This document shows positions 14,623-32,794 of a DNA stretch of 64,000 nucleotides, one piece after another (position 1 is the stretch's first letter; every line of letters begins with the position of its first letter). The stretch is from Emcibacter sp. (GTDB lineage: Bacteria > Pseudomonadota > Alphaproteobacteria > Sphingomonadales > Emcibacteraceae): the NCBI GenBank assembly GCA_021774785.1, contig JAJFIQ010000006.1, positions 62,001-126,000 on the forward strand, in the 5' to 3' direction. The notes beneath the pieces are model-generated. The model ran no database searches. It had not been told where the DNA came from and saw only the letters and a list, made by a program, of their open reading frames with translations. A program made the position numbers and the translations under genes.

Positions 14623-16041
14623 ATGACTATTCATACCGCCATTAAAAAGAACAGATACACCCCCTCAGACAAAGAACAATCCTTTCTGGATACGGTTGAA
14701 AATGCCAAATATGACCGCCAGATTATTGCGGGTATCAAGAAATTCACAACCGGCAAAGTGCCGGAAGATATGCAGGATTTTTATTCACCGGAGGAATTGC
14801 AGGCTCTCGAAAAAATAAAGGATACTGGTCTTGATGTGGAAGCCCGTATGCCTGTAAAAATCACCCGCCATTATTTTGAGCAGGCAAAAAACAGCATTCC
14901 CATGCAGGTTCTGGTTAAGGCCAGCCCTAAAGAAACATATGATCTGGATGGTGCGGCAGACCCCGGCAAACAGATGACCTATAGTCCGGTTGAGGGGCTA
15001 ATTCATAAATATGAACTTGGGCTGATTTATGTGGTTGGAACCTGCTCTGCCCATTGCCGGTTTTGTTACCGGGAAGAATTGATTGCCAAAAAAGAGATTG
15101 AGCGGGAGGATGGCACCATCGCTGCCAAAGGCATGGCACAAATCGGTGACATTGTAGCCTATGTGAAGGATCATAACCGCATCGTAGCTGACAATGGGGG
15201 TACACATCCAAAAACAGGCCGTAAAAGACTCCGCGAAATACTCATGTCCGGGGGTGACCCCATGGTACTTGCCAATAAACAAATTGCCGCATGGCTCGCC
15301 GCACTGTCTGAGGCGGGCATAGAATCAATTCGTTTAGGCACCAAAGAATTGGCCTTTTATCCAGACCGTTTTGACGAAACTTTCTTTGATATGCTGGATA
15401 AATTCCACATTGCCTATCCTGAGACTAAACTGCGGATCATGATCCATTTCAATCATCCTGATGAGTTCCTGAAGAAAGACGAAAACGGTGACTATATAGA
15501 AGTTTCGGGCGGTGGCCTTGAATGGCTTGAAAACACCAAACATGCCGTCACCCAATTGGGCAAACGGGAATGGCTGACGGTGGATAATCAGGCACCGATC
15601 ATCAAGGGGATTAACAATGACCCGGACGCCCTGCGCACCATGCAGCGGGAAATGAAGCGCAATAAAGTTGAAAACCATTATTTCTTCTGTGGGCGAGACA
15701 TCATCGGCCATAAAGCCTTTAACGTGCCAATCGAAGAAGCTTGGGCGATACTGAACGAGTCACAAAAGGGGCTTTCCGGTGTTGAAACCCATGCTCGCCT
15801 GTCCATCACCCATTATAAAGGGAAAACCGAAGTAGTCGCGGTCAGTAACGAACCGGCAGCGGGCATACCGGGCGGTGAGAACGGCGTTGTTGTAATGAAG
15901 CTATTGCGCGGGGCTGCCGATGCCCCTGACCGTGGAAAAATTACCATACTTGGCCGCAATCCAGAGGCTATCTGGTTCAGCGGCTATAATGACCGCGTGC
16001 TTTATGATGAAGCCGGCCTTTTTGAGGGTGTCGACAGTTAG
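14623..16041 (+). CDS. KamA-family radical SAM protein (lysine 2,3-aminomutase-like)
   Basis: This 472-residue protein has the radical-SAM iron-sulfur motif CSAHCRFC (Cys141, Cys145, Cys148; the CX3CX2C spacing) in the context GTCSAHCRFCYRE, typical of lysine 2,3-aminomutase relatives. LREILMSGGDPMVLANKQI is the conserved SAM/GGD region. True aminomutases use SAM and PLP to shift an amino group on lysine, glutamate or arginine. The C-terminal half (THYKGKTEVVAV, PAAGIPGGENG) differs from clostridial KamA, and I cannot place the PLP-binding lysine at the usual glycine-rich segment. The substrate is therefore open. It is longer than EpmB (about 340 residues). It is divergent from a LysR gene and its stop overlaps that of the convergent kinase gene. 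Confidence 0.85.
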   Translation: MTIHTAIKKNRYTPSDKEQSFLDTVENAKYDRQIIAGIKKFTTGKVPEDMQDFYSPEELQALEKIKDTGLDVEARMPVKITRHYFEQAKNSIPMQVLVKASPKETYDLDGAADPGKQMTYSPVEGLIHKYELGLIYVVGTCSAHCRFCYREELIAKKEIEREDGTIAAKGMAQIGDIVAYVKDHNRIVADNGGTHPKTGRKRLREILMSGGDPMVLANKQIAAWLAALSEAGIESIRLGTKELAFYPDRFDETFFDMLDKFHIAYPETKLRIMIHFNHPDEFLKKDENGDYIEVSGGGLEWLENTKHAVTQLGKREWLTVDNQAPIIKGINNDPDALRTMQREMKRNKVENHYFFCGRDIIGHKAFNVPIEEAWAILNESQKGLSGVETHARLSITHYKGKTEVVAVSNEPAAGIPGGENGVVVMKLLRGAADAPDRGKITILGRNPEAIWFSGYNDRVLYDEAGLFEGVDS

Positions 16042-17411
16042 TTCTTGAAAATCAAGCGAAAAGAGATGCCACCATCATCATTATTGTGACAATTTATGCT
16101 GCCATGATGGGCCAGCATAATCTGACGGGCGAGGCTCAGACCAATACCTGACCCTTCCTGTTTGGTGGTATAAAAAGGCACAAATATCTTTTGTAGCATA
16201 TCATCATCAATACCGGAGCCGTTGTCCCTGATTTCAATGATGATATTGCCGCCACGGTCAAGATAACCTTTGAGTGTAATTTTACCCTCTCCCTGATCGC
16301 TAACCACTTCCACGGCATTCTTGATCAGATTTATCACGGCCTGATCAATGAGTTCCGGGTCGGCATTAATGGCAAGTGATTTTGGCAACACATCGGCCAT
16401 CAACGCAATATTTTTCTCTTTGCACTGCTCCGCGAATAATTGTGTCATATTATCAAAAATGGCCGCTATCGGCATGCGTTGATATTCAGGCGGTGGCACC
16501 TTGGTCATTTTCCGGTAATTTACCACAAAGGAATCCAGGCGACCACTGCGTCTTGATATAGCGCCAATCCCGTCTCGCAAGTCATTTAACATATCGGCAA
16601 ATTCAGTCGAGTGCTTTTCCTCTGCCACCTTTTGGCTAATATCCTGCATTAATAAATTCATGCTATTCGACAAGGAAGCTACGGGGGTCAGGCTATTCAT
16701 TAATTCGTGGGTCAGGACATGAACCAGATCCTGCCATGCTTCGATCTGGGTCGTGTCCAACTCGCTCTGAATATTATGGAGTGAAATCAAATAACTGGAA
16801 ACGCCATCCATAACAATTTTGGTAGTGGCGAGGGAAAGTTTTATTTCCTCATTATCATGAATAATACGAATAAGCCTTTTCTTACCCGTCCGTAAATGCT
16901 GTAGCTCGTATATCAGGCTGGGGCCAAATGATTTAAGGTCTGATACCTTATGAATATGGCTAAGTCCGAACAGCCGCTTTGCGGCATTGTTAAGAAATGC
17001 CGCTTCTTGATTTTCCTTGATAGACAGGAGAGCCACGGGAATATGATCAATTTGGGCGTGAAAATATCGGGCATGCTTCTCATTCTTGGTGCGGTCATGT
17101 TTGAATTTTTGCATCACCGTGTCATAGGCATCTGCGAGTTCCGCTTTATTGCCGCCAAACCCCTTACGCCCCAGTTTCTGAGAAAAATCGGAAAACCGTA
17201 CCGCATCAAGAAAATAGATCATTTCCCGCTCAGAAATAGTGAGTTTATTCAACAAGGACCAGAATTGCATAGCAACCGCACTCATTAATATGAGGGCAAT
17301 CGCATATTTCTCACTACTGTAAAGGACCCATATCAGGCCGAGAATAGTTAAGCACAGACACAAAAGGCGGAAAGCAATATTCAAGGCTGGACGGCTGATA
17401 TTAAAGCTCAT
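16038..17411 (-). CDS. Membrane sensor histidine kinase, partner of the NtrC-type regulator
   Basis: From the ATG at 17411 the product is about 457 residues. Two closely spaced membrane helices lie in the first 60 residues (LLCLCLTILGLIWVLYS and YAIALILMSAVAMQF). Next come a linker, a PAS-like domain (about 120-215, PVALLSIKENQEAAFLNNAAK), a HisKA helix with His235 (HVLTHELMNSLTPVASL) and a HATPase_c domain (NLIKNAVEV, DNGSGIDDD, GSGIGLSLARQI). The longer frame to 17468 would lie inside the regulator gene. The ATG at 17411 overlaps the regulator's last codons by 11 bases, which implies translational coupling. It resembles NtrY/NtrB-like kinases. It should phosphorylate the regulator encoded upstream and so control the transporter operon. 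The signal is unknown. Confidence 0.92.
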   Translation of the reverse strand: MSFNISRPALNIAFRLLCLCLTILGLIWVLYSSEKYAIALILMSAVAMQFWSLLNKLTISEREMIYFLDAVRFSDFSQKLGRKGFGGNKAELADAYDTVMQKFKHDRTKNEKHARYFHAQIDHIPVALLSIKENQEAAFLNNAAKRLFGLSHIHKVSDLKSFGPSLIYELQHLRTGKKRLIRIIHDNEEIKLSLATTKIVMDGVSSYLISLHNIQSELDTTQIEAWQDLVHVLTHELMNSLTPVASLSNSMNLLMQDISQKVAEEKHSTEFADMLNDLRDGIGAISRRSGRLDSFVVNYRKMTKVPPPEYQRMPIAAIFDNMTQLFAEQCKEKNIALMADVLPKSLAINADPELIDQAVINLIKNAVEVVSDQGEGKITLKGYLDRGGNIIIEIRDNGSGIDDDMLQKIFVPFYTTKQEGSGIGLSLARQIMLAHHGSINCHNNDDGGISFRLIFKN

Positions 17412-18786
17412 GTTTTTCCATCCTGCGATAAAGGGAAGCTCTGGTAATACCCAATTCCTTGGCCGCACGGGAGATATTCCCCTGATGCCGCCTCAAAGCA
17501 TTTTCAAGGGCATTTTTTTCCAGCTCTTCCAAGGTTATCTTTTCATCCCCGATAGCCTCTGAAGGCGAAAATATTGCATCGTTGCTGTCAGTTCGGATCG
17601 GAAAGTCTGTCGCTTCAAGCTGATCCGCTTTCCCAAGGATTATAGCCCGCTCCACACCATGACGTAGCTCACGGATATTGCCGGGCCAATGATAATCCGC
17701 CAGCATTTTATGAGCATTCTTAGAGATAGGGCGAACAAGCTGGTTATATTTCTTTGCATAATGACGGACGAAATGATCAAGCAGCAAGGGAATATCACTA
17801 CGCCTGTCCCGCAAGGGCGGAACATGAATTTCCACAGTATTCAGACGATAGCGCAAATCCTGCCGAAAAATATTATCCTGACCCAATGCCTCGGGGCTAA
17901 TGTTGGTGGCACTGATAAGACGAATATCGATCTCCACCGACTTGTTTGAGCCAACAGGTGTCACCTGTCTGCGCTCAAGGGCGGTAAGTAGTTTGGTTTG
18001 CAGGGCCATTGGCAGATTGCCAATTTCATCAAGAAATAATGTACCCCCTTCTGCCGCCTGCATAAGGCCCGTCCGGTCTTCACGGGCATCGGTGAAAGCG
18101 CCTTTTTTATGGCCGAATAGCTCACTCTCGAACAAATTTTCACTGATTGCACCAAGATCGACGGTAATGATACCGTTATCCTTGCGCAACGACTGGCGGT
18201 GAATTTCCCGGGCTATCAATTCTTTTCCTGTACCATTCTCGCCTAAAATCATGATGTTGGCATCTGTGGGGGCGGCTTGCAGGATGATATCCATCACCTG
18301 CTTTATTGCATCGCTATCACCGATCATGCGATCCTGATGGTTAAGGCTATGTTGTATTTCCCGACTACGGTTTTTCAGCTTTTCGGTTTCCCGGCCATAG
18401 CGGGCAAGACGAACCGCTGTGCGCAGAGTGGATACCAGTTTTTCATTCTCCCAGGGTTTGGTGATGAAATCTGTAGCCCCCCTTTTCATGGCCTCTACAG
18501 CCAGTTCAACGCCCCCGTGGGCGGTGATCACAATGATGATCATGTCCGGTTTTTCTGATAAAATCTCATTAAGCCAATGCAACCCTTCGGTACCAGTATC
18601 CTCACCTAGCGCGAAATTCATATCTAGAAGAACCGCATCAATATCCCGATCATTAAGGATCTCTTTGACCTGATCAGGGCGGTTGGTGGTACTAACGGAC
18701 GAGAAATGCCTTTTCAGTAAAAGACGAGCAGCAATAAGAATATCCTGATCGTCATCAACCACAAGAATATTGCCGGTTTTTCCCAT
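17401..18786 (-). CDS. Sigma-54-dependent response regulator (NtrC family)
   Basis: The 461-residue protein has the complete NtrC-class layout. A receiver domain carries the phospho-acceptor Asp55 in AVLLDMNF and acidic residues in VVDDDQD. An AAA+ domain has Walker A GENGTGKE (182-189) and the sigma-54 contact loop GAFTDA (229-234). A C-terminal Fis-type HTH (HQGNISRAAKELGITRASLYRRM) completes it. It activates RNA polymerase carrying sigma-54 when phosphorylated. It lies upstream of and overlaps its kinase gene, and is divergent from the transporter operon, whose upstream region holds a near-consensus sigma-54 promoter and a palindrome that fits as its binding site. Confidence 0.96.
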   Translation of the reverse strand: MGKTGNILVVDDDQDILIAARLLLKRHFSSVSTTNRPDQVKEILNDRDIDAVLLDMNFALGEDTGTEGLHWLNEILSEKPDMIIIVITAHGGVELAVEAMKRGATDFITKPWENEKLVSTLRTAVRLARYGRETEKLKNRSREIQHSLNHQDRMIGDSDAIKQVMDIILQAAPTDANIMILGENGTGKELIAREIHRQSLRKDNGIITVDLGAISENLFESELFGHKKGAFTDAREDRTGLMQAAEGGTLFLDEIGNLPMALQTKLLTALERRQVTPVGSNKSVEIDIRLISATNISPEALGQDNIFRQDLRYRLNTVEIHVPPLRDRRSDIPLLLDHFVRHYAKKYNQLVRPISKNAHKMLADYHWPGNIRELRHGVERAIILGKADQLEATDFPIRTDSNDAIFSPSEAIGDEKITLEELEKNALENALRRHQGNISRAAKELGITRASLYRRMEKHEL

Positions 18787-18897: not shown

Positions 18898-18914
18898 CTG
18901 GCACAATATTTGCT
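18898..18914 (+). promoter_or_regulatory. Sigma-54 (RpoN) promoter of the transporter operon
   Basis: The sequence CTGGCAC-AATAT-TTGCT matches the -24/-12 consensus TGGCAC-N5-TTGC exactly in bases and spacing. The GG falls at 18900-18901 and the GC at 18912-18913. Transcription would start near 18925, giving a 5' leader of about 20 nt before the ATG at 18946. The sigma-54-dependent activator is encoded immediately on the other side of the gap. Confidence 0.88.
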
Positions 18915-21029: not shown

Positions 21030-23474
21030 ATGTTTAAAAATTATCTTCTGATTGCCTTGCGGAATTTGAAACGAAACAGAATTTACAGCCTGATTAATAT
21101 CTGTGGGCTGGCTATTGGATTAGCGGTATTTATTTTTGCCGCTATCCTCACGCAATATGAAAAATCGCATGATATATTCTTTGAAAATGCCGCCAGAATT
21201 TATACACTGGGATCAGTCCTTTCCCCACAAGCAAATTACAGTGTAAAGGAATTCGATGGCGTCTATACAGCCATTGCACCACTTTTGGAAGCAGAAGCGA
21301 CCGATATTGAGGCTACCGCGCGCATTGTACAGGATGAGTATCTTCTAACGCTTGGAGAGCGCGGGTTTTATCAGAAAATAAAATTCGCCGATAAAGCACT
21401 TCTTAAAATATTTGATTTTGAATATCTGGCCGGGGATACCAGCGCACTGGATGACCCCTTAGGCATCGCCTTGACCGAAACCATCGCCAAGAAATATTTT
21501 CCCGCTGGCAATGCAATGGGCAAGGTGATCTCACTTAATTTCCATAGTAAAATAGACCTCCGGGTAACGGCTGTGATCCGGGATATCCCGCGCAATAGTC
21601 ATTTCATTTCTTCACTCATAAAAGACAATCCTCTTGAGGTTATAGCTTCCCTTAACGCCCTCAAACAGATGGATGAATTTAAACTAGAGGGTAACTGGGA
21701 TAATATAACAACTGGTGATTTAACCTATGTTTTACTGCCATCCCATCTTGACGGCCAATGGTTGGAACAACAGGCCAATGATGTTTTCCAACGTCATGCC
21801 TCAGACGACGTGAAAAAATTTATCTCTGGCGTTAAAAGTCGTCGGCTTCAGGATATGAATCTGGTTTTATGGGATGCTGTTGGTCTACCGATAATTACTG
21901 TCGTTATGGGGCTTGGTTTAATGGTATTGATCATAGCTGGTTTGAATTATACCAACCTTGCCACAGCTCAAGCCATGGACCGGGCCAAAGAGGTTGGCCT
22001 GCGCAAGACTTTGGGTGCCAAAATTGGTCAGCTTTTGATACAATTTCTGGTGGAAAGCGTCATGATAACCTTCATTGCCTTGCTGGTGGCCTTGGCAATG
22101 TTAGAGATTATCATTCCGGTTTTTAATGATCGGTTTGGCAAAATATTATCGTTGGATTATTTTTCCTTACTGCCCCCCCTGGTGATCATAACATTTTTGA
22201 TTGGATTGATAGCAGGCGCTTATCCGGCCTATGTTATTACCCGCGTCAAACCCGTTGATGCCCTTAAAGAAAGCCTTAGCAAGGGATTAAAAAGATCACT
22301 GGTCCGAAGTGCAATGATTGGTGCACAATTTGTATTTTCTGTTTTCCTGCTGGCCATGGTTGCTGTGGTGACTATCCAGAATGAGAAGATCATGAAAAGT
22401 AGTGAAATTTTTCCAAAATCACAAATCGTGACCTTACAAAAAACCTGGGTTGGTGACATTCCGACACGGCATGATACCCTTAAACGGGAAATTACGGCAC
22501 TGTCCGGTGTTGAGAATATGACTTTTTCCAGTCAAGTGCCTTTTATTCAACAAAACTGGACATTTGATGCCTCAAAAAATTCCGGCGATATCGCTGGAAA
22601 GGTCAATCTTAATAGGATCATGGTGGAATATGACTTTCTGAAAACCTATGATATTCCCCTTATCGCAGGTCGTGATTTCTCCCAAGAATTTGCCAATGAT
22701 ATGGAGAAAAAAGAATCGACTGTTTTGAATGTAATCATCAATGAAACGGCTCTAAAAAAGCTTGGCTTTAAATCACTCCATGATGCCTTAAACAAGAGCT
22801 TCTATCAAATTTTCAGAGATAATGAGGATGGTAAAAAATCACGGGCATATGTGATTGTCGGTGTAATGAAGGACCAAAATTTTTTAGGTTTACACAATAG
22901 CATCAAACCAATCGTCCTCAGAGTACACTCACAATATTATGAAACAGCTTCAATACGCATCAAGGGAAAAGAATTTTCTGCGACAATGAGAGAAATAGAA
23001 AGGATTTGGAAAAAAATTAATCCAGATTACCCTATTCAGGTTGAATATCTGGATGATATTTTTAACCATATGTTCAAAATATACAAAAGCATTAACATCG
23101 CCCTCGCCGGCTTTACGGTTATGGCCCTGACCTTGGCCTTCATAGGGTTGTTTGGGCTTGCGGCATTTATGGCAGCAGGACGAACCAAGGAAATTGGCAT
23201 TCGCAAAGTCATGGGTGCTAAAACCCATCAGATAGTCACCCTGTTGATCTGGCAATTCTCCCTTCCGGTATTATTGGCTTTACAGGTGGCCCTACCCTTG
23301 TCTTATTTTGCTTCTGACGCCTATCTCAATTTTTTTGCAGACCGCATTGAATCACCGATTGTTATGATCACAGGATCAGGCCTAGTGGCCGTGATATTGT
23401 CATGGCTTATCGTATTAACCCATGCCATTCGTGTTTCCAGCCGAAAACCTATCCATGCCCTTAGATATGAATGA
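21030..23474 (+). CDS. FtsX/MacB-like ABC permease, paralogue A
   Basis: This permease of about 814 residues starts at ATG 21030 (MFKNYLLIALRNLKRNR), as its paralogues do. The TTG six bases earlier is a worse start. It contains two FtsX-type units. A first membrane helix near residue 20 is followed by a MacB-type periplasmic core and three helices (about 285-410). A further helix near 430, a second periplasmic core and a C-terminal three-helix block (AFMAAGRTKEIGIRKVMGA, then two more helices) complete it. It ends SSRKPIHALRYE. This double-unit form of about 800 residues is the type common in Bacteroidota-like systems. It is much closer to the fourth permease (28478-30916) than to the middle two. 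Confidence 0.92.
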   Translation: MFKNYLLIALRNLKRNRIYSLINICGLAIGLAVFIFAAILTQYEKSHDIFFENAARIYTLGSVLSPQANYSVKEFDGVYTAIAPLLEAEATDIEATARIVQDEYLLTLGERGFYQKIKFADKALLKIFDFEYLAGDTSALDDPLGIALTETIAKKYFPAGNAMGKVISLNFHSKIDLRVTAVIRDIPRNSHFISSLIKDNPLEVIASLNALKQMDEFKLEGNWDNITTGDLTYVLLPSHLDGQWLEQQANDVFQRHASDDVKKFISGVKSRRLQDMNLVLWDAVGLPIITVVMGLGLMVLIIAGLNYTNLATAQAMDRAKEVGLRKTLGAKIGQLLIQFLVESVMITFIALLVALAMLEIIIPVFNDRFGKILSLDYFSLLPPLVIITFLIGLIAGAYPAYVITRVKPVDALKESLSKGLKRSLVRSAMIGAQFVFSVFLLAMVAVVTIQNEKIMKSSEIFPKSQIVTLQKTWVGDIPTRHDTLKREITALSGVENMTFSSQVPFIQQNWTFDASKNSGDIAGKVNLNRIMVEYDFLKTYDIPLIAGRDFSQEFANDMEKKESTVLNVIINETALKKLGFKSLHDALNKSFYQIFRDNEDGKKSRAYVIVGVMKDQNFLGLHNSIKPIVLRVHSQYYETASIRIKGKEFSATMREIERIWKKINPDYPIQVEYLDDIFNHMFKIYKSINIALAGFTVMALTLAFIGLFGLAAFMAAGRTKEIGIRKVMGAKTHQIVTLLIWQFSLPVLLALQVALPLSYFASDAYLNFFADRIESPIVMITGSGLVAVILSWLIVLTHAIRVSSRKPIHALRYE

Positions 23475-23482
23475 GATCAATT

Positions 23483-25981
23483 ATGTTTAACAATTATATA
23501 CTCACAGCACTACGGAACTTGCATAGACATCGGCTATTTTCAGCAATCAATATCGTTGGTCTGGCCATTGGTCTAGCCAGCGTGATCCTGATCATTCTGT
23601 TTATCCGGGATGAAGTGGGCCATGACCAATGGATTGCGGATTCAGATCGCATAGTTCGGGTTCATATGTCATACGTCCCCCGTGATGGACAACCATTTGA
23701 AACCGTAAGATCTGCGGGCAGGATCAGTGAAGCCATCAGCAACGATGCCCCGGAATATGTAGAGGACGCTGTACGGCTAATCATTGGTAGATCCAATTTG
23801 ATCCGCAATGGCCAGTCCTTTTCAGAGTTGGTTTTTTACGGCGACAATAGTTTTTTTAACGTATTTGATTTTCCCTTTCTTCATGGTGATAAAAAAACAG
23901 CCATGGCTGATGTGGATAATGTAGTTATCAGTGAAAAGATTGCCCGGAAATATTTTGGGCGCACGGATGTAATCGGTGAAACACTAACCTTCTGCTGTCT
24001 TGACGACAAGGAAGCTACTGTAAAAATATCGGCGGTATTGAAAGATACGCCCAAGAACACCCACTTTAATGTTGATATCATGCTGGTCATCGAACCAAAC
24101 CGCTTTGCCTTTGCCCCGAACATGCTGGACACATGGACCAGTGTGAATGTTTATACTTATTTCAAACTTAAAGATGCCAGTGATATTGCCCCTTTTCAGG
24201 CCAAAATTTATGACTGGCTGAATGAGCGCAGCATGTTCAAGGAAAGAATGACTGAGGGCAAAGTAACTGACGCCTTTAAATATAAGGTCATGTCCATAGA
24301 AGATATACATTTGAAAGCCATTGCCCATTCAGGAAATATGGGTGGTATCAAAGCTCTTGGTGATATAAAATTAATTTATTCCTATTCCAGCATAGCCCTT
24401 TTAGTGCTTGTCATTGCCTGTATAAATTTCATGAATCTGTCCACTGCCCGATCCAATACCCGGGCGCGAGAGGTGGCCCTTCGTAAGGTCGTTGGTGCCA
24501 GCCGTTCCCAATTGGCGACCCAGTTCATCAGTGAATCAATCTTTATATGTCTGACATCATTTGTTCTGGCTCTGGCTTTCGTAGAATTGGCTCTGCCCTT
24601 CTATAACGATATGCTGGGCAAGCAGTTGGGGCTGGATTATGGTAATATGGGATTTCTGTCCATGCTGGTCGGTCTATCCGTTTTTGTCGGTCTTATTGGC
24701 GGTGCTTATCCCGCATTTATATTGTCAAATTTCCGTCCAGCTCTAATTCTGAAAGCCAATCAATCATCGCAGCAGGGCGGTAGCAATCGTATCAGAGCCT
24801 ATCTTGTGGTGTTTCAATTTGCCGCTAGTATCTGCCTCGTTATCTGCACAGCCATTGTCTATAGCCAGACAAATTTTGCCCGTAATATTGATCTTGGCTA
24901 CAACGTCACAGGAAAAATGATATTGCGGAATATAGGCGCGGGTGGCGGCAATATGGATTCACAGGCCCTAAAAAACAGACTGCTGTCATTGCCGGCAGTA
25001 ACCAATGTAACCTATTCTTCGGAAGTACCATCTGACGATAATAACAATAATACTGGCTTCAAACGCCTATCCGCCGGTGGTGTTGACGGAGCCATGAATG
25101 AACAGTCAATTTTAAACTATCATTCAGTGGATTTTGACTTTATGGAAACTTATAATATCAAGACCCTGAAAGGCCGGGCTTTCTCCGAAGAATTCCCATC
25201 TGATACGGCTAATCCTCCAGAAAATGAGGATGAAATCGGCACAGGTGCCATCATGCTGAATGAATCAGCTACAAAAAAAATGGGGTTTGGTTCCCCGGAA
25301 GAGGCCATAGGTCAGATGGTCCGCGCCTCTATATTCCGGGCTGGGGATGCGGATATGACCATTATCGGCGTAATACCGGATATCTATTTCCGCTCAATCA
25401 AATTTGGTATTCGTCCCAGCGTCTATTTCCGCCGAACCGACAGATTTCGTAATGCGACGATCAAATTCACGACAAATGATACGGCCGCATTAATCGAACA
25501 GGTGGAACAGGTCTGGAATGAAGTGGCTCCAATGGTGCCCTATCGCTACGAATTTGTGAATGAGCTTATTGATGCGCAATATGCCAGTGAAGAAGCCAGG
25601 TTTAATTTATTTATAGTATTTTCAATTCTAGCCGTCATTGTCGCCTGTCTCGGACTATATGGTCTGGCCTCCTTCACCGCAGAACAACGTACAAAGGAAA
25701 TCGGCATCCGAAAAGTGCTCGGCGCCTCTGTGTCTGACATTATAAAACTGCTCATATGGCAATTCTCCAAACCGGTATTATTTTCCAACATCATCGCCTG
25801 GCCAGCGGCCTATTTCCTGATGAAGGATTATCTGAATACATTTCAATATCGCATTGACCTTAGCCTCGCATATTTCATTCTAGCCAGTATTCTGGCCCTG
25901 ATTATCGCCTGGATTACCGTCACATGGCACGCCGCCAAAGTTGCCCGCGCAAAACCCATTAACGCCTTAAGGTACGAATAA
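23483..25981 (+). CDS. FtsX/MacB-like ABC permease, paralogue B
   Basis: The product of about 832 residues has the same two-unit FtsX/MacB_PCD layout: MFNNYILTALRNLHRHR with the first helix, a periplasmic core, the NFMNLSTARSNTRAREVALRK cytoplasmic coupling segment near residue 325, a second core, and the C-terminal block with EQRTKEIGIRKVLGAS. An ATG at 23471 overlaps the preceding stop codon, but the ATG at 23483 aligns with the MFKNY start of the other copies and has GAGATC at a fair distance. Its closest relative is the next gene, with which it shares an almost identical final 70 bases. The operon continues without a gap. Confidence 0.92.
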   Translation: MFNNYILTALRNLHRHRLFSAINIVGLAIGLASVILIILFIRDEVGHDQWIADSDRIVRVHMSYVPRDGQPFETVRSAGRISEAISNDAPEYVEDAVRLIIGRSNLIRNGQSFSELVFYGDNSFFNVFDFPFLHGDKKTAMADVDNVVISEKIARKYFGRTDVIGETLTFCCLDDKEATVKISAVLKDTPKNTHFNVDIMLVIEPNRFAFAPNMLDTWTSVNVYTYFKLKDASDIAPFQAKIYDWLNERSMFKERMTEGKVTDAFKYKVMSIEDIHLKAIAHSGNMGGIKALGDIKLIYSYSSIALLVLVIACINFMNLSTARSNTRAREVALRKVVGASRSQLATQFISESIFICLTSFVLALAFVELALPFYNDMLGKQLGLDYGNMGFLSMLVGLSVFVGLIGGAYPAFILSNFRPALILKANQSSQQGGSNRIRAYLVVFQFAASICLVICTAIVYSQTNFARNIDLGYNVTGKMILRNIGAGGGNMDSQALKNRLLSLPAVTNVTYSSEVPSDDNNNNTGFKRLSAGGVDGAMNEQSILNYHSVDFDFMETYNIKTLKGRAFSEEFPSDTANPPENEDEIGTGAIMLNESATKKMGFGSPEEAIGQMVRASIFRAGDADMTIIGVIPDIYFRSIKFGIRPSVYFRRTDRFRNATIKFTTNDTAALIEQVEQVWNEVAPMVPYRYEFVNELIDAQYASEEARFNLFIVFSILAVIVACLGLYGLASFTAEQRTKEIGIRKVLGASVSDIIKLLIWQFSKPVLFSNIIAWPAAYFLMKDYLNTFQYRIDLSLAYFILASILALIIAWITVTWHAAKVARAKPINALRYE
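25911..25980 (+). repeat. 70-bp near-identical tract, copy 1 (3' end of permease B)
   Basis: The last 70 coding bases of this permease match those at 28398-28467 in the next gene at 68 positions by my reading. The two genes differ much more elsewhere. This points to gene conversion or strong constraint on the C-terminal coupling tail (WHAAKVARAKPINALRYE). Confidence 0.8.
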
Positions 25982-25990
25982 AGGCATAAA

Positions 25991-28468
25991 ATGTTTAAAA
26001 ATTATATCGTAACAGCCTATAGAAATATTCTGAGACACAAACTTTATTCTATGATCAATATTTTTGGTCTGGCTATTGGAATGGCAAGCTGTCTGTTGAT
26101 CCTGTTATTTGTTCAAGATGAATTGAGTTATGATAATTGGATACCTGAAGCAGAAAGGATTTATCGTGTTCAGACCCATTCCCAGCTTCCCGGCAGAGCG
26201 CCGCTTGTAGTTGTTCGTGCACCGGGTCCGGCCCGTGAAACATTCTTACAGGAATTCCCCCAGATCGAATATGCCACCCGCATATTTCGTAGCCACCCGA
26301 TCATTCGACAGGGAGAGAAAAGTTTTTTTGAAACTGTCACCTTTGCCGATGAAAGCTTTTTCAAGGTTTTTGACCTGCCCTTTACCATAGGAGAAAAGAC
26401 CAATGCCTTAACCGAAAATAACACCATTTATTTATCGGAAAATATGGCAAAGAAATATTTTGGAAATGCATCTCCCTTGGGCAAAATACTCAGTTTGAAT
26501 AACAAAAGAGACTATAAAATAGTTGGCGTTTTCAAGGACCTGCCACGAAATAGTCATCTGGAGCTGGACTTTCTGGCACGGTTTGAACTGAATGACTACA
26601 AAGACAGAACGTGGGTTGCAGAATATTGGACATCTCTAAACACATTTCTGTATCTAAAGCTTAGAAAAAATATTTCTCCAAACGTAGTTAGTGACAGGTT
26701 CAAAAATATTGTCGCAACCAAAGTCCCCCCTTTAAAGGTCGGAGAAGCCGAATTTATAGCTGCAGATGTGATGACCCTGTCCCTGCACAATGTTCGGGAT
26801 ATTCATTTGAAAAGTGAAGGACTGGGTGGAATCAAACCGGGTGGTGATATCATTATCGTATATATTTTCTCCACCGTGGCCGTCTTAATTTTGATTATTG
26901 CCTGTATTAATTTTATGAATTTATCCACCGCACGGTCCCTTCAACGCGCCAGAGAAATAGGATTGCGCAAAATGGCTGGAGCCACACGACCACAGCTTAT
27001 CACACAGTTTCTTGGCGAAACAATTTTCTTGTCATTTATGGCCCTGATCCTCGCTTTGGGTATCGTTGAAATAATTTTGCCATGGTATAATGAATTTATT
27101 GGCAAACAATTGAGATTAGACTATTTCAGCAGTTCTTTTTTGACCTTGTCGTTAATTGGTTTGATCGCCACTGTAGGAATTCTTGGCGGTCTGTATCCGG
27201 CCTTATATTTATCCTCATTCCAGCCATCTAGGGCTCTGAAAGCAAGCCAGTCAAACTTAGGTGGCGAGTCCGGCCAATTTAGATTTTCATTGGTAGTTTT
27301 CCAATTTTCAATTTCCACTACACTAATGATTTGTACAGCCATCGTATATGACCAAACAAATTATATCCAGAATTTGGATGTTGGTTTTTCTAAGGGAAAT
27401 AAGCTGATACTCAGGGGAATAGGCCGTGATGCAGTAAAAAATGTCCATGAAACTTTGGCAAGGGAAATTGGTAATCTGGAGATGGTTGAAGATTTTTCTT
27501 TTTCATTAGTGGTCCCCTCTGATGTTCGCGAAAATGATGCCGATGTTATCATTCCGGGGGAAACTTCGACAGAATCCGTCATTCTTTCCCGCACAGATGT
27601 GGATGATAATTATTTTAAAACCTATAATATTCCAATCATTGCGGGACGGGATTTCTCTAATTCCCGCGGTCAAGATGAATTACATTACACGAACAGCATC
27701 ACAACACCACCTTTACGGGCATCCGTTATTATCAATGAATCCGGTTACCGTCAGATCGGCTTTAACAGCGCAGAAGAGTCCATTGGTAAAATTATCACAA
27801 TCGGGACACAAGATTCCAAAACCGGCCTGCGCAATGAATTGGAAATAATTGGCATTGTACCGGATGTTCATTTCATGTCCCTGAAAAGAAACATTAGGCC
27901 GTTCATTTATGTTTTTTCGGACAAACGATATAATAATCTGACGATTAAATATCGGCAAAATACAAATATTCCGGAACTGGTGACACAACTGGAAGAAATC
28001 TGGCAGAAAATCATTCCCGGCCTTCCGATTAAATATGACTTCCTCGACGATTATATTGCCCGTCAATATGATACGGACCGGAATAAAGGCCAATTATTTG
28101 CCACTTTCGCTGGATTGGCAATCATAATCGCCTGTATGGGCTTATACGGCCTTGCTGCCTTCACTGCCGAACAAAGAACACGTGAAATTGGAATCCGTAA
28201 GATCCTTGGAGCTTCTATGGTAGATATTATTAGTCTTCTGGTCTGGCAAATTACGAAACCTGTTGTGGTGGCCAATATCATTGCCTGGCCATTGGCTTTT
28301 TATTTCGCCCGAGATTATCTGAATGCATTTCAATATCGCATTGACATCAGTGCCATGCTTTTTATCGCTGCCAGTTTAGTAACATTAATCATCGCATGGA
28401 TTACCGTCACATGGCACGCCGCCAAGGTTGCCCGCGCCAAACCCATTAACGCCTTAAGGTACGAATAG
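25991..28468 (+). CDS. FtsX/MacB-like ABC permease, paralogue B'
   Basis: This 825-residue permease starts MFKNYIVTAYRNILRHK and has the two-unit FtsX/MacB_PCD architecture, with coupling segments NFMNLSTARSLQRAREIGLRK and EQRTREIGIRKILGAS. It pairs with the preceding gene in sequence: both have the STARS coupling helix, the FTAEQRT block and the C-terminal WHAAKVARAKPINALRYE. The gap to the previous gene is only 9 bases. As in the other copies, the periplasmic cores are more divergent than the cytoplasmic helices. That would be expected if the cores recognise different substrates or partners. Confidence 0.92.
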   Translation: MFKNYIVTAYRNILRHKLYSMINIFGLAIGMASCLLILLFVQDELSYDNWIPEAERIYRVQTHSQLPGRAPLVVVRAPGPARETFLQEFPQIEYATRIFRSHPIIRQGEKSFFETVTFADESFFKVFDLPFTIGEKTNALTENNTIYLSENMAKKYFGNASPLGKILSLNNKRDYKIVGVFKDLPRNSHLELDFLARFELNDYKDRTWVAEYWTSLNTFLYLKLRKNISPNVVSDRFKNIVATKVPPLKVGEAEFIAADVMTLSLHNVRDIHLKSEGLGGIKPGGDIIIVYIFSTVAVLILIIACINFMNLSTARSLQRAREIGLRKMAGATRPQLITQFLGETIFLSFMALILALGIVEIILPWYNEFIGKQLRLDYFSSSFLTLSLIGLIATVGILGGLYPALYLSSFQPSRALKASQSNLGGESGQFRFSLVVFQFSISTTLMICTAIVYDQTNYIQNLDVGFSKGNKLILRGIGRDAVKNVHETLAREIGNLEMVEDFSFSLVVPSDVRENDADVIIPGETSTESVILSRTDVDDNYFKTYNIPIIAGRDFSNSRGQDELHYTNSITTPPLRASVIINESGYRQIGFNSAEESIGKIITIGTQDSKTGLRNELEIIGIVPDVHFMSLKRNIRPFIYVFSDKRYNNLTIKYRQNTNIPELVTQLEEIWQKIIPGLPIKYDFLDDYIARQYDTDRNKGQLFATFAGLAIIIACMGLYGLAAFTAEQRTREIGIRKILGASMVDIISLLVWQITKPVVVANIIAWPLAFYFARDYLNAFQYRIDISAMLFIAASLVTLIIAWITVTWHAAKVARAKPINALRYE
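28398..28467 (+). repeat. 70-bp near-identical tract, copy 2 (3' end of permease B')
   Basis: This is the partner of the tract at 25911-25980. Two differences are visible, one of them an A/G change in an Ala-Lys-Val context and one an A/C change before the final Lys-Pro-Ile. Confidence 0.8.
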
Positions 28469-28477
28469 GAGACTGAA

Positions 28478-30916
28478 ATGTTTAAAAATTATATCCTGAT
28501 AGCATTGCGGAATTTAATGCGAAACAAAACATACAGCCTGATAAATATCGGTGGTTTGGCGCTTGGGATGGCGGTTTTTGTTTTCGCCAATGTTCTGGCA
28601 CAATATGAAAGAAATCATGATATATTTTTTGAAAAATCTGACAGAATATATACCTTAGGGTCCGTTTTCTCCCCAACGGCGAATATTGGTGTAAAAGGAA
28701 CCGATGGCATATATACAACTATGGCGCCCCTGCTGAAAGCAGATTTGCCTGATATAGAAGCCATAGCCCGTACCGTACAGCGGGAGTATCTGTTGACAAT
28801 GGGGGATCGTAATTTCTATCAGGGAATAAAATTTGTTGATAAATCCCTGTTGAAAATTTTCGATTTTGACTATCTGGCAGGGAATAACACAGCCCTTGAT
28901 GACCCTTCGGGCATCATCCTGACTGAATCACTAGCCAAGAAATTTTTTCCCGGTCAGAATGCCATTGGCCAAGTACTTTCACTTGATCATAAAAATGATT
29001 TACGGGTTACGGCTGTAATACGGGATATACCAAAAAATTCCCATTTCATCTCTTCTCTGATAATAAATGAACCGCTTGAGGCTATAGCCCCTCTCAAGGC
29101 CCTAAACAAGATTGCGGACTATGATTTGGCCGGAAACTGGAATAATCTATCCATGGGGAATTCTACCTATGTTCTACTGCCTGCCCATCTTGATCGACAG
29201 TGGCTTGAGCAACAGGCAAATGATGTTTTTGAACGTCATGCCTCGGAGAGTATAAAAAAATTCACAACCCATCTCGTAAGCCGAAAAATAGAGGGTATGA
29301 ACCTGGTATTATGGGAAGTGACCGGTATGCCGGTGCTTGAAAGTATGGTTGTTTTGGGTTTTTTGGTGCTGATTATTGCCGGCCTTAATTATACCAACCT
29401 TGCCACGGCACAGGCCTTGGGCCGAGCAAAAGAAGTTGGACTACGCAAGACCATGGGGGCCAATATGGGGCAGCTATTGACGCAATTTCTGGTGGAAAGT
29501 GTGGCGACAGCGTTCCTTGCCATGTTGGTTGCTCTGGCAATACTGGAAATACTCATTCCGATCTTTAACGATAGTCTTGGGAAAATTTTGACACTGGATT
29601 ATCTTACTTTACTGCCGTCGCTCTTTGGATTGACGCTGCTGGTTGGTCTAATAGCCGGTAGTTATCCGGCCTATATCATAACCCGTGTTAGACCCGTGGA
29701 TGCCCTGAAAGAAAGTCTAAGTAGGGGGTCAAAAGGTTCCATGGTAAGAAGCATTATGATCGGCGCACAGTTTGTATTCTCTGTCTTTATGATGGCAATG
29801 GTTGCTGTGGTATTTTTCCAGAACGAAAAAGTCAAGGAAAGCAGTGAAATTTTCCCCAAATCACAGATTGTGACTTTGGAAAGACTGGGGGTGGAAGACC
29901 TTCTGGCGCGCAATGAAACCTTAAAACAGGAAATTAGTGCCATTTCAGGGATAGAATGGGTAACATTCTCCAGTCAGGTACCTTTCGACCAGTCGAATTC
30001 CGCCTTTGCTGCATCAAAAAATTCTGGAGATTTTGCAGGAAAGATTATTATCAACCAGATCATTGTCGAATATGATTTTTTAAAAACCTATAATATTCCC
30101 CTTCTATCAGGTCGTGATTTCTCTCGGGATATAGCCAATGATCTGCAAAAGGAAGACTCAGAAGTCCTCAATGTCATTGTCAATGAACTGGCCTTAAAGA
30201 AACTTGGGTTGCCAACATATAAAGACGCTATCAACAAGGTTTTCCACGAGGTTGCTGAAAACCCCAAGGAAGGCAGAATACTAAAGTCATTCGTCATTGT
30301 TGGTGTAATGGCGGATCAAAATTTCTTAGGATTGCATAATAGTGTCAAGCCACTCATCTTTCAGGTAAACCCTAAATATTATCAAACTGCGTCCATCCGA
30401 ATAATGGGCCTTAATTTCACTCAGACAATGGCAAAAATAGAAGCTGTTTGGAAAAAAGTTAACCCAGATTATCCCATTCAGGTTCAATTTCTGGACGCCC
30501 TTTTTGAAGATGTCTTCAAAATATATAAAAGTATGAATATAGCTCTCGCAGGCTTTGCAGTAATGGCATTGACATTGGCCTTTATTGGTTTGTTCGGACT
30601 GGCGGCCTTTATGGCAGCAGGGCGGACAAAGGAAATTGGTATTCGCAAGGTGATGGGTGCAGAAACCTATCAGATTGTAACTTTACTGATCTGGCAATTC
30701 TCCCGCCCGGTATTATGGGCGTTAGTGGTGGCATTACCCATGTCTTACTTTGCCTCGGATGCCTATCTCAATTTCTTTGCCGAACGGATTAAATTGCCGA
30801 TTATATTGATCGCAGGGTCCGGGCTTATTGCCGTGATGTTATCATGGGTGATCGTGTCGGCACATGCTTACCGCGTATCAAGCCGGAAACCTATCCATGC
30901 CCTGCGGTATGAATAA
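28478..30916 (+). CDS. FtsX/MacB-like ABC permease, paralogue A'
   Basis: The 812-residue product mirrors the first permease throughout: MFKNYILIALRNLMRNK, LNYTNLATAQALGRAKEVGLRK, AFMAAGRTKEIGIRKVMGAE and the ending SSRKPIHALRYE. It has the same two FtsX units and two periplasmic cores. It is the last gene of the sigma-54 operon. The next gene is convergent and 148 bp away, and I see no strong terminator hairpin in that gap. The order A-B-B'-A' suggests duplication of an A-B pair with rearrangement, or assembly of A/B heterodimers. Confidence 0.92.
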   Translation: MFKNYILIALRNLMRNKTYSLINIGGLALGMAVFVFANVLAQYERNHDIFFEKSDRIYTLGSVFSPTANIGVKGTDGIYTTMAPLLKADLPDIEAIARTVQREYLLTMGDRNFYQGIKFVDKSLLKIFDFDYLAGNNTALDDPSGIILTESLAKKFFPGQNAIGQVLSLDHKNDLRVTAVIRDIPKNSHFISSLIINEPLEAIAPLKALNKIADYDLAGNWNNLSMGNSTYVLLPAHLDRQWLEQQANDVFERHASESIKKFTTHLVSRKIEGMNLVLWEVTGMPVLESMVVLGFLVLIIAGLNYTNLATAQALGRAKEVGLRKTMGANMGQLLTQFLVESVATAFLAMLVALAILEILIPIFNDSLGKILTLDYLTLLPSLFGLTLLVGLIAGSYPAYIITRVRPVDALKESLSRGSKGSMVRSIMIGAQFVFSVFMMAMVAVVFFQNEKVKESSEIFPKSQIVTLERLGVEDLLARNETLKQEISAISGIEWVTFSSQVPFDQSNSAFAASKNSGDFAGKIIINQIIVEYDFLKTYNIPLLSGRDFSRDIANDLQKEDSEVLNVIVNELALKKLGLPTYKDAINKVFHEVAENPKEGRILKSFVIVGVMADQNFLGLHNSVKPLIFQVNPKYYQTASIRIMGLNFTQTMAKIEAVWKKVNPDYPIQVQFLDALFEDVFKIYKSMNIALAGFAVMALTLAFIGLFGLAAFMAAGRTKEIGIRKVMGAETYQIVTLLIWQFSRPVLWALVVALPMSYFASDAYLNFFAERIKLPIILIAGSGLIAVMLSWVIVSAHAYRVSSRKPIHALRYE

Positions 30917-31064: not shown

Positions 31065-31928
31065 CTAGCCCCTTGGCCAAACGCGAGGGAACAATTCCCC
31101 TGAAAATGTTTCACCGTCTTTCAATGTTATTGCGGGAACCGTATCCATTACTTTCTTGTTTTCCAGAAAGGTGCCAGCGCGGTTGTCAAATGTCACATCA
31201 TCTCCCAGATAGCGCAGGGCAAGTCCCCGACGACGACCTGTGGTGGATTTATTGCCGGACGCATAATGCAGTGTAAGCGGATGATGAATTAACACATCCC
31301 CCGGCTCCATTTCCCAGCACAGGATGTCATGCCTATCTCTTTCCGCCTCTATATCGGGCAGTGGCTCCAGTCCGGCCTTGGCATAAATATCGGCGAAGCC
31401 GGTTTTATCGCCAAAAGTACTGGGGCCAAATAGCTTGCCCCACTTATGGGAGCCCTTCACATAGACCACAACGCCGCTTTCCTCATTGGCAGGGTCGAAA
31501 GGCACCCAGACGGATATGACCTGATTACCACGGACCGGCCAATAGGATAAATCCTGATGCCATGGTGTAGGTTCATCCGTATTGGGTTCTTTGACCAGCA
31601 ATTGATCATAAAAGAAGTTCAGACAATGACTGTCCATTACCTGTGCTGCGATTTCAGGCATGGGGGAGGCCATCATAAAGGCTTTAAAGGCGGGGTCTCT
31701 GCGCCAGATGAAAAAATCACCATAATAACGCCCTTGTTTACCCTTTGGCGTATATTCCAATGACGCACTGCCCGGATTATTAAGTATGCGTTCAACGGCA
31801 TCTTGCATCACTTCTATCCATTCCAATGGCATCACGCCACGCAGCACATGGGCGCCGTTCTCTTCATAAGCAGCAATTTCTTCTGACGTGATATCGCGAC
31901 ATAACCGGCTTGGTAGAGATGCATACAT
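31065..31928 (-). CDS. Phytanoyl-CoA dioxygenase (PhyH) family oxygenase
   Basis: This 287-residue protein is a non-haem Fe(II)/2-oxoglutarate oxygenase. The facial triad can be read as His124 and Asp126 in TPWHQDLSYW and His221 in HHPLTLHYASGN. The 2-oxoglutarate-binding arginine probably lies in RRRGLALRY. The segment VWVPFDPANEESGVVVYVKGSHKWG is typical of PhyH relatives acting on small molecules. Such enzymes hydroxylate or desaturate acyl or amino-acid-derived substrates. It is the last gene of a three-gene operon with a LuxR-type regulator and a TPP enzyme, so its substrate may come from the TPP enzyme's product. This is inference. Confidence 0.88.
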   Translation of the reverse strand: MYASLPSRLCRDITSEEIAAYEENGAHVLRGVMPLEWIEVMQDAVERILNNPGSASLEYTPKGKQGRYYGDFFIWRRDPAFKAFMMASPMPEIAAQVMDSHCLNFFYDQLLVKEPNTDEPTPWHQDLSYWPVRGNQVISVWVPFDPANEESGVVVYVKGSHKWGKLFGPSTFGDKTGFADIYAKAGLEPLPDIEAERDRHDILCWEMEPGDVLIHHPLTLHYASGNKSTTGRRRGLALRYLGDDVTFDNRAGTFLENKKVMDTVPAITLKDGETFSGELFPRVWPRG

Positions 31929-32011
31929 TTTCTTGTCTCCTATTTTTAAAGATATTATTTAAGCAGTTAAGCAATATGCCGTCTATCATCCCATTGGATT
32001 ACAACCAATAG

Positions 32012-32794
32012 TCAGACCTGCTTGCTTAATTCCGCAAGGCAAAGGGGAAATAATTCATTCAGGCTCGATATATCCAACTTGGTATAAGCACGGCGCATGA
32101 AAGTTGCCACGGTGGGTTGTTTTATACCGAGATCAAGTGATACCCCTTCCCTCGTCAGCCCCTGCATAACACGGGCACAGACTTCAATTTCCCGTTTACT
32201 CAAATCACCCCCGAGCTTTGATACCAGCCCTTCCAGCTTTTCAATGGGGGGGATCGTTTTTGCATCCCATTCAGTGGGTACAGAGAAAGAAAGATGCCGT
32301 TTAACCAGGGCAGAAATCAAACATGCTTCCACGCTGATAACTTCCCTGTCTTGCTCGGTGAAATAACCGCTTTCCACATCACGGTAAAAATTCAACGTAA
32401 ACCATTTCTGTTTTTCATGATCAATAAGAGACAGGCGGTCAAGCAAACCATTATCCTCATATATATTCTTCCGATAGCCTTCGTCTTTAATATCCTCAGC
32501 ATGCATTTGAAGCAAAAGCGGGATCGCTTCATCTTCATCGCTTTTTTGCCCCACCCATTTCAAACTCGGATCATGATAATAATATGAGGACTTCTCGTAT
32601 AATTGACTTAAACGGGATGTGATCGAGCCTTCACCCCTGCTGGTGCCCGCAATAAAATGAGGGACAAAAGCATGATCAAAGACAAATAATGTCACATGAT
32701 CAACAGGTAATAACCTGTCCAATGCGCCACTAAAATGTTGAAAAAAATCGTCCCTGCCAAGGGCCATGACCAATTCTGGTGCAATGCGGATCAC
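32012..32794 (-). CDS. LuxR-family transcriptional regulator
   Basis: The 260-residue product ends in a LuxR/FixJ-type HTH (LSKREIEVCARVMQGLTREGVSLDLGIKQPTVATFMRRAYTKL). The N-terminal 170 residues form a mixed domain (VDHVTLFVFDHAFVPHFIAG...) that looks GAF-like, and I cannot identify an autoinducer-binding WYDPWG-type signature. There is no receiver domain. It overlaps the upstream TPP enzyme gene by 4 bases (ATGA) and lies 83 bases before the PhyH gene. A regulator embedded between two enzymes probably senses a pathway compound and controls the operon itself. Confidence 0.88.
   Translation of the reverse strand: MIRIAPELVMALGRDDFFQHFSGALDRLLPVDHVTLFVFDHAFVPHFIAGTSRGEGSITSRLSQLYEKSSYYYHDPSLKWVGQKSDEDEAIPLLLQMHAEDIKDEGYRKNIYEDNGLLDRLSLIDHEKQKWFTLNFYRDVESGYFTEQDREVISVEACLISALVKRHLSFSVPTEWDAKTIPPIEKLEGLVSKLGGDLSKREIEVCARVMQGLTREGVSLDLGIKQPTVATFMRRAYTKLDISSLNELFPLCLAELSKQV

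Follow-up and report, generated by a model that had tools for sequence, protein, structure and literature searches.

A gene cluster in the genome of Emcibacter sp., a marine alphaproteobacterium, probably encodes a sigma-54-controlled exporter of the tripartite type, in which one ATPase and one periplasmic adaptor would act as the common engine for four alternative permeases. The window, i.e. the whole stretch of 64,000 nucleotides that was analysed, comes from a host genome of 3.5 Mb within the order Kordiimonadales. A first-pass annotation of this DNA had suggested that a single ATPase serving several permeases could mean that the latter are swappable, and comparison with relatives lends that suggestion indirect support. 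Since the permease:ATPase ratio ranges from 1:1 to ~10:1 within one conserved operon type, and since five genomes have additional, motor-less copies of the permease elsewhere, the motor is probably a shared engine for interchangeable permeases.

The operon, its regulators and its permeases

The operon extends along the forward strand from 18946, where the adaptor gene starts, to 30916, where the fourth permease gene ends, with intergenic gaps of ~8-33 bp. Its order is adaptor (446 aa), ATPase (227 aa) and four permeases, here g1 to g4 (Table 1). Open reading frames and Pfam searches confirm the basic description given by the first-pass annotation, namely four permeases of 812-832 aa, each with two FtsX units, following one ATPase and one adaptor. 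MacB_PCD and FtsX domains are well over the Pfam cut-offs in all four permeases, which begin at the first transmembrane (TM) helix and have no ATPase fused at the N terminus. The ATPase (P0005) has its Walker motif, signature, Walker B and H-loop intact and scores 493 bits among the ATPases of the host genome, the runner-up scoring 185 bits, while the adaptor (P0006) is the sole adaptor of its kind in that genome (E<=1e-10). The exporter would presumably partner with TolC; three OEP-family proteins are encoded in the host genome, none of them adjoining the operon.

Table 1. Positions within the window of the operon, its regulatory genes and promoter, and features of the permeases (G013 is a genome of the same genus)
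Feature	Coordinates	Strand	Evidence or remark
Sensor histidine kinase	16038..17468	-	HATPase_c 81.9 bits; conserved neighbour in relatives
NtrC-type sigma-54-dependent response regulator	17401..18786	-	Response_reg 74, Sigma54_activat 209, HTH_8 59 bits
Sigma-54 (-24/-12) promoter TGGCACAATATTTGCT	18899..18914	+	perfect box, upstream of adaptor gene
Periplasmic adaptor (membrane fusion protein), HlyD/DarC-like, P0006	18946..20286	+	HlyD_3, HlyD_D23; DarC model 237 bits (cut-off 450)
ATPase (NBD), LolD/MacB/DarD class, P0005	20314..20997	+	ABC_tran; DarD model 287 bits (cut-off 375)
Permease g1, class A, 814 aa, two MacB_PCD-FtsX units	21030..23474	+	predicted 8 TM; pLDDT 84.5, pTM 0.78
g1 coupling helix 1, residues 319-327	21984..22010	+	helix in model; conserved motif
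g1 coupling helix 2, residues 719-727, within AFMAAGRTKEIGIRKVMGA segment	23184..23210	+	helix in model; conserved motif
Permease g2, class B, 832 aa, two units	23483..25981	+	G013 orthologue, 81% identity
g2 3' end, last 50 codons, tract common with g3	25832..25981	+	codon identity
Permease g3, class B, 825 aa, two units	25991..28468	+	predicted 8 TM; pLDDT 86.6, pTM 0.82
g3 coupling helix 2, residues 730-738	28178..28204	+	helix in model
g3 3' end, last 50 codons, partner of g2 tract	28319..28468	+	codon identity
Permease g4, class A, 812 aa, two units	28478..30916	+	orthologue in G013

Upstream of the operon and divergent from it are the genes for a response regulator with receiver, AAA+ and Fis-type HTH domains and for a sensor histidine kinase, in which a PAS-like region and then HATPase_c follow two TM helices. 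The sigma-54 box, situated 33 bp ahead of the adaptor start, is the sole match in the window, where 0.07 would be expected. Of 56 homologous divergent regions, 46 have such a box (42 of 52 once four loci fetched twice are removed), versus 0.7% of random 450-bp pieces, so sigma-54 control is ancestral in this operon. Judging by its position and type, the neighbouring NtrC-type regulator probably drives the operon. Inspection by eye, rather than computation, places the two TM helices of the kinase close together with a near-absent periplasmic loop, a layout resembling that of intramembrane-sensing kinases such as BceS, and its signal might be transporter activity itself. Flanking genes of the operon encode a KamA-like protein and a PhyH protein. 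The former (14623-16041), whose gene adjoins that of the kinase, contains a CxxxCxxC motif of the radical-SAM type (CSAHCRFC), had no Pfam match at E 0.001, and has a similar gene near the operon of a congeneric genome (G004, locus L034). Convergent with the operon after g4 (31065-34524) are genes for a member of the phytanoyl-CoA dioxygenase family, a LuxR-like regulator and a thiamine-diphosphate enzyme resembling acetolactate synthase.

AlphaFold2 models of g1 and g3 have the order TM1-periplasmic domain-TM2-4 twice per chain, with two coupling helices, and hydropathy is consistent with two 4-TM units that each bear a large periplasmic domain between TM1 and TM2. The best full-length fold match is YbbP of Escherichia coli YbbAP, to which g1 (Z 23.6, rmsd 9.3, 675 residues) and g3 (Z 25.1, rmsd 9.3, 658 residues) align over their entire length; single MacB, LolC/E and FtsX chains match one half only. 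Based on these models, every one of the permeases is predicted to form a full pseudo-dimer by itself, and hence a whole transporter core. The segment RTKEIGIRK is the second coupling helix of the g1 model, and the 'EIGIRKxxGA' signature likewise corresponds to the second coupling helix, is generic to the family and occurs in nearly all relatives.

Whole-protein identity is 69% for g1/g4 and 45% for g2/g3, versus 31-34% between classes A and B. A comparison of periplasmic and membrane cores, which the first-pass annotation had proposed, found the periplasmic domains to be the more divergent part, at 20-29% identity between A and B versus 41-48% for the FtsX units. Within the g2/g3 pair, the second FtsX unit (FtsX2) is 72% identical and the periplasmic domains 31-32%. 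Stronger conservation of the FtsX units is usual within the FtsX/MacB family.

Relatives of the operon and the history of the array

A contig search with the permease alignment as query found relatives, and one with a single permease sequence (P0001) returned none. The cassette of kinase and regulator, adaptor, ATPase and permease(s) is conserved among the relatives and the number of permeases varies. Within the same genus, the operon has A alone (G011), B-A (G004) or B-A-A across a contig break (G013), and within the same family A alone (G016), B-B-B-B-A-A (G020) or five B followed by five A in a row (G024). Other Kordiimonadales families have A-B-B, B-A-A-B-B, B-A-B-B-B or six Bs, and ~40 Gammaproteobacterial loci (Woeseiaceae, Thalassotalea, Aestuariibacter and others) have mostly one A. 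Loci in Bacteroidota, which are a sample from the alignment-based contig search rather than the phylum-wide extent, contain up to 8-9 B-type permeases with one ATPase, or with no ATPase in the stretch that was fetched. The combination of a single ATPase with several permeases, which had been called unusual, is therefore common in both Kordiimonadales and Bacteroidota. The A-B-B-A order, for which the first-pass annotation had proposed a survey of neighbouring genomes, is confined to this genome and is in itself ordinary.

In genomes of the Kordiimonadales, a single ATPase and a single adaptor of this type accompany 1 to 13 or more permeases, and cultured strains exist among the carriers (Kordiimonas). 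Of 148 genomes of the order that are at least 90% complete, 51 have the adaptor and 53 the permease, all 51 having both; this co-occurrence is partly trivial, because the array genes belong to one operon. The two genomes with permease and without adaptor are G030, which is in ~400 contigs, and G071. Single in-frame stops were seen in a second ATPase copy of G035 (C1:142944-143606) and in adaptor copies of G035 (C1:2425018-2426334) and G047 (C1:92426-93742), which suggests that some ATPase and adaptor copies may be decaying there. A gene of the OEP/TolC family recurs at seven Bacteroidota array loci (L115, L117, L119, L124, L125, L126 and L129), one representative having been confirmed by Pfam, and supports a tripartite assembly in those arrays.

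In a tree of 64 permeases from the Kordiimonadales, A and B form two deep clades. The two classes proposed by the first-pass annotation thus exist, but its A/A' and B/B' pairs do not, as neither g1/g4 nor g2/g3 is a sister pair. Rather, g1 groups with the sole permease of G011 and g4 with a permease of G013 (both 100/99 when residues 46-690 are used), g2 groups with the B of G013 and then with Bs of Kordiimonas and other families (100/98), and g3 groups with the B of G004 and then with ten further Bs (98/91). Since g2 and g3 fall with different B relatives, they come from subfamilies older than the split between the families of the order. The same four placements led to rejection of the idea that the A-B-B-A order arose by inverted or palindromic duplication. 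In a short tree of FtsX2, which has few columns, g2, g3 and their orthologues cluster (90%).

At the 3' ends of g2 and g3 (last 50 codons), 32 of 41 same-amino-acid codons are identical, whereas the 60 codons before them give 17 of 42 (p=7e-4), and the excess also holds in comparison with the N-terminal remainder of the gene (p=2e-5). Four-fold sites agree at 13 of 15 positions in the last block and at 0-67% elsewhere. The g2/g3 signature ARAKPINALRYE falls inside this tract, and because synonymous sites are near-identical there as well, it reflects recent gene conversion, not sisterhood of the whole genes. The signature segments that had been listed for g1/g4 and g2/g3 are exact. A 3' excess at p<1e-3 occurs in six of 341 same-array pairs, among which g2/g3 ranks second, versus one of 2719 cross-locus pairs. 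Adjacent genes in relatives have a 3' tract in nine of 117 pairs (~8%, p<0.005), a 5' tract in three of 118 and an FtsX1 tract in none; as 3' tracts outnumber the others, tandem neighbours swap mostly their 3' ends. The last FtsX unit is, in the full set, 4-7 points more alike in same-array pairs at equal periplasmic identity. This excess was considered as proof of a common ATPase and found unusable, being inconsistent at low identity in a five-genome subset and partly due to gene conversion; the same-genome excess is modest and mixed with gene conversion.

A proposed common motor and competing explanations

Outside their arrays, five genomes (G019, G020, G024, G041 and G052) have 20 extra loci with 26 permeases, and no ABC ATPase or adaptor gene was present in the fetched flanks, which span several kb on each side in most cases, some G024 loci ending at contig edges. 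Nearly all 26 keep both coupling-helix motifs, which match those of the array permeases. In G019, a closed genome of one contig, 13 double permeases (five in the array and eight elsewhere) coexist with one ATPase of the operon type (375 bits, the next 184) and one adaptor of the operon type. Three of its four other best-scoring ATPases adjoin permease genes of their own. Read by eye, one of these genes is LolC/E-like, another is YbbP-like, and the third encodes an FtsX-like permease of 792 aa and lies with an adaptor-like gene; the fourth ATPase looks by eye like that of an amino-acid importer and has no FtsX-like neighbour. In the host genome, no solitary permease copies were found and all three other candidate ATPases adjoin a permease gene. 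One such locus (L164, contig C11), where a gene for a TesA-like lipase diverges from those for an ATPase and a YbbP-like permease, is probably the host's YbbAP-TesA operon.

In the proposed mechanism, sigma-54 would switch on the common ATPase-adaptor engine, and each permease would be a covalently fused MacB-type dimer in which each coupling helix binds one copy of the ATPase. In YbbAP, two ATPases bind one pseudosymmetric YbbP (PMC12646458), and PMC5985334, citing Khwaja et al. 2005, describes the ATPase of fused-dimer members as always a separate protein. A 2:1 assembly of two ATPases with a single permease would be the simplest expectation here. The conserved membrane and coupling parts would preserve the fit to the common ATPase, the divergent periplasmic domains would set different cargo, and mechanotransmission might proceed as in MacB and YbbAP. 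We infer that the permeases physically share the ATPase and adaptor, that transport is directed outwards and that the permeases differ in substrate. A wider proposal, put forward tentatively and with somewhat less than even confidence, is that in expanded relatives the single inducible engine also powers the scattered motor-less permeases genome-wide, which would explain the duplicated orphan permeases known as ADOP; periplasmic domains would then diversify on a conserved, partly gene-converted membrane module. The solitary permeases might instead work with another LolD/MacB-class ATPase.

Several other explanations were weighed. The ATPase and adaptor might have a single working partner, the A-type permease kept in the minimal operons, the others being diverging duplicates that use other ATPases or none, e.g. 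as sensors or envelope-remodelling FtsX-like proteins. Operons with one permease carry class A almost always, class-B copies occur alone with no ATPase nearby, and FtsEX illustrates a non-transport role for the same fold (PMC8277102). We nonetheless regard this as unlikely, given that the gene immediately following that of the ATPase is often of class B (as in G013, G004 and many arrays), that class-B genes have intact reading frames, that the arrays of Bacteroidota contain only B-like permeases, and that solitary copies retain the coupling helices just as array members do. It is more improbable still that the array comprises redundant copies boosting the dose of one exporter; although g1 and g4 are 69% identical and neighbours undergo gene conversion, periplasmic identity is only 20-29% between A and B and ~31% for g2/g3, and the g2 and g3 subfamilies split before the families of the order, from which it follows that distinct copies have been retained for long.

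The least probable explanation, to which we give very little credence, is that of the first-pass annotation, i.e. heteromeric complexes of A and B permeases on the ATPase. The two classes do coexist in many Kordiimonadales operons, and LolCE is a heteromeric precedent. However, both halves already lie within each polypeptide in the g1 and g3 models, and permeases predicted to be pseudo-dimers in themselves do not need to form heteromers. Moreover, the A:B ratio varies freely, and arrays with B-like permeases only occur in Bacteroidota. The same operon with one A permease, as in G011 of the same genus, G016 and the ~40 Gammaproteobacterial loci, likewise argues against A/B heteromers. A common engine for alternative permeases accordingly stays the favoured explanation.

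Relation to known systems and leads to substrates

By FtsX and MacB-type periplasmic domains and by 4-TM units, the permeases belong with the type VII (MacB/FtsX) ABC transporters. The system resembles DarBCD (NF038008, NF038010 and NF038007) in its double-unit permease without a fused ATPase, its DarC-like adaptor and its DarD-like ATPase, the DarBCD models being the best NCBIfam matches for the last two. Unlike DarBCD, it has four permeases instead of one and sigma-54 two-component control, and none of its proteins reaches the equivalog cut-off (98-175 against 700 for the permeases, 237 against 450 for the adaptor and 287 against 375 for the ATPase). For all four permeases, the best NCBIfam model is ADOP (TIGR03434, duplicated orphan permease), at 238-306 bits and below the cut-off of 622. 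ADOPs are defined by the absence of an ATPase gene nearby. The solitary copies in five related genomes fit that description, whereas the permeases in the window have an ATPase gene directly upstream; because they follow an ATPase and an adaptor, a candidate motor is known, unlike for ADOP. Gene by gene, then, the system is a type VII exporter akin to DarBCD or ADOP that lies below both sets of cut-offs.

YbbAP-TesA, a type VII ABC system of E. coli, likewise has its ATPase as a protein apart from a single FtsX permease with an internal duplication. It differs in that YbbP has 10 TM helices with a two-helix linker (PMC12646458), versus the 8 predicted here, and in that the operon has an adaptor instead of an adjoining TesA-type hydrolase. 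MacAB-TolC has the same MacB_PCD and FtsX domains and an adaptor of the HlyD/MacA type, but MacB is a homodimer with a fused ATPase, as opposed to the separate ATPase and fused-dimer permeases described here, and LolCDE has two separate 4-TM permeases per complex in place of double-unit polypeptides. That one ATPase can serve several ABC systems is established for the MsmK sugar importers (PMC4519317), which are of another ABC type and offer an analogy of function only. If all the permeases of such a genome depend on its single ATPase, then type VII exporters too diversify by gaining permeases around a constant engine, as is known for the MsmK importers.

To our knowledge, neither motor nor function has been assigned to duplicated FtsX/MacB permeases without their own ATPase, of which some genomes have dozens. 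Two Dyadobacter genomes, for example, have 28 and 33 'acidobacterial duplicated orphan permeases of unknown function' (PMC11573002). The ATPase-adaptor operon offers a test bed for these unexplained ADOPs. A limited search of the open-access literature found no description of MacB arrays with several permeases and a single ATPase, nor of a variable permease array on one ATPase combined with a motor-less pool.

No substrate is claimed, because no neighbouring gene is universal. A 5'-nucleotidase gene adjoins some Woeseiaceae loci. In Emcibacteraceae-like genomes, a gamma-glutamyltranspeptidase gene, often with an amidohydrolase gene, lies at the end of the array at eight loci (L039, L042, L045, L047, L048, L077, L085 and L088). 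In G049 (L053:2740-16539), a lone A-like double permease sits among radical SAM and JmjC/cupin-like genes, an arrangement reminiscent of a modified-peptide cluster, which would point the way to a substrate.
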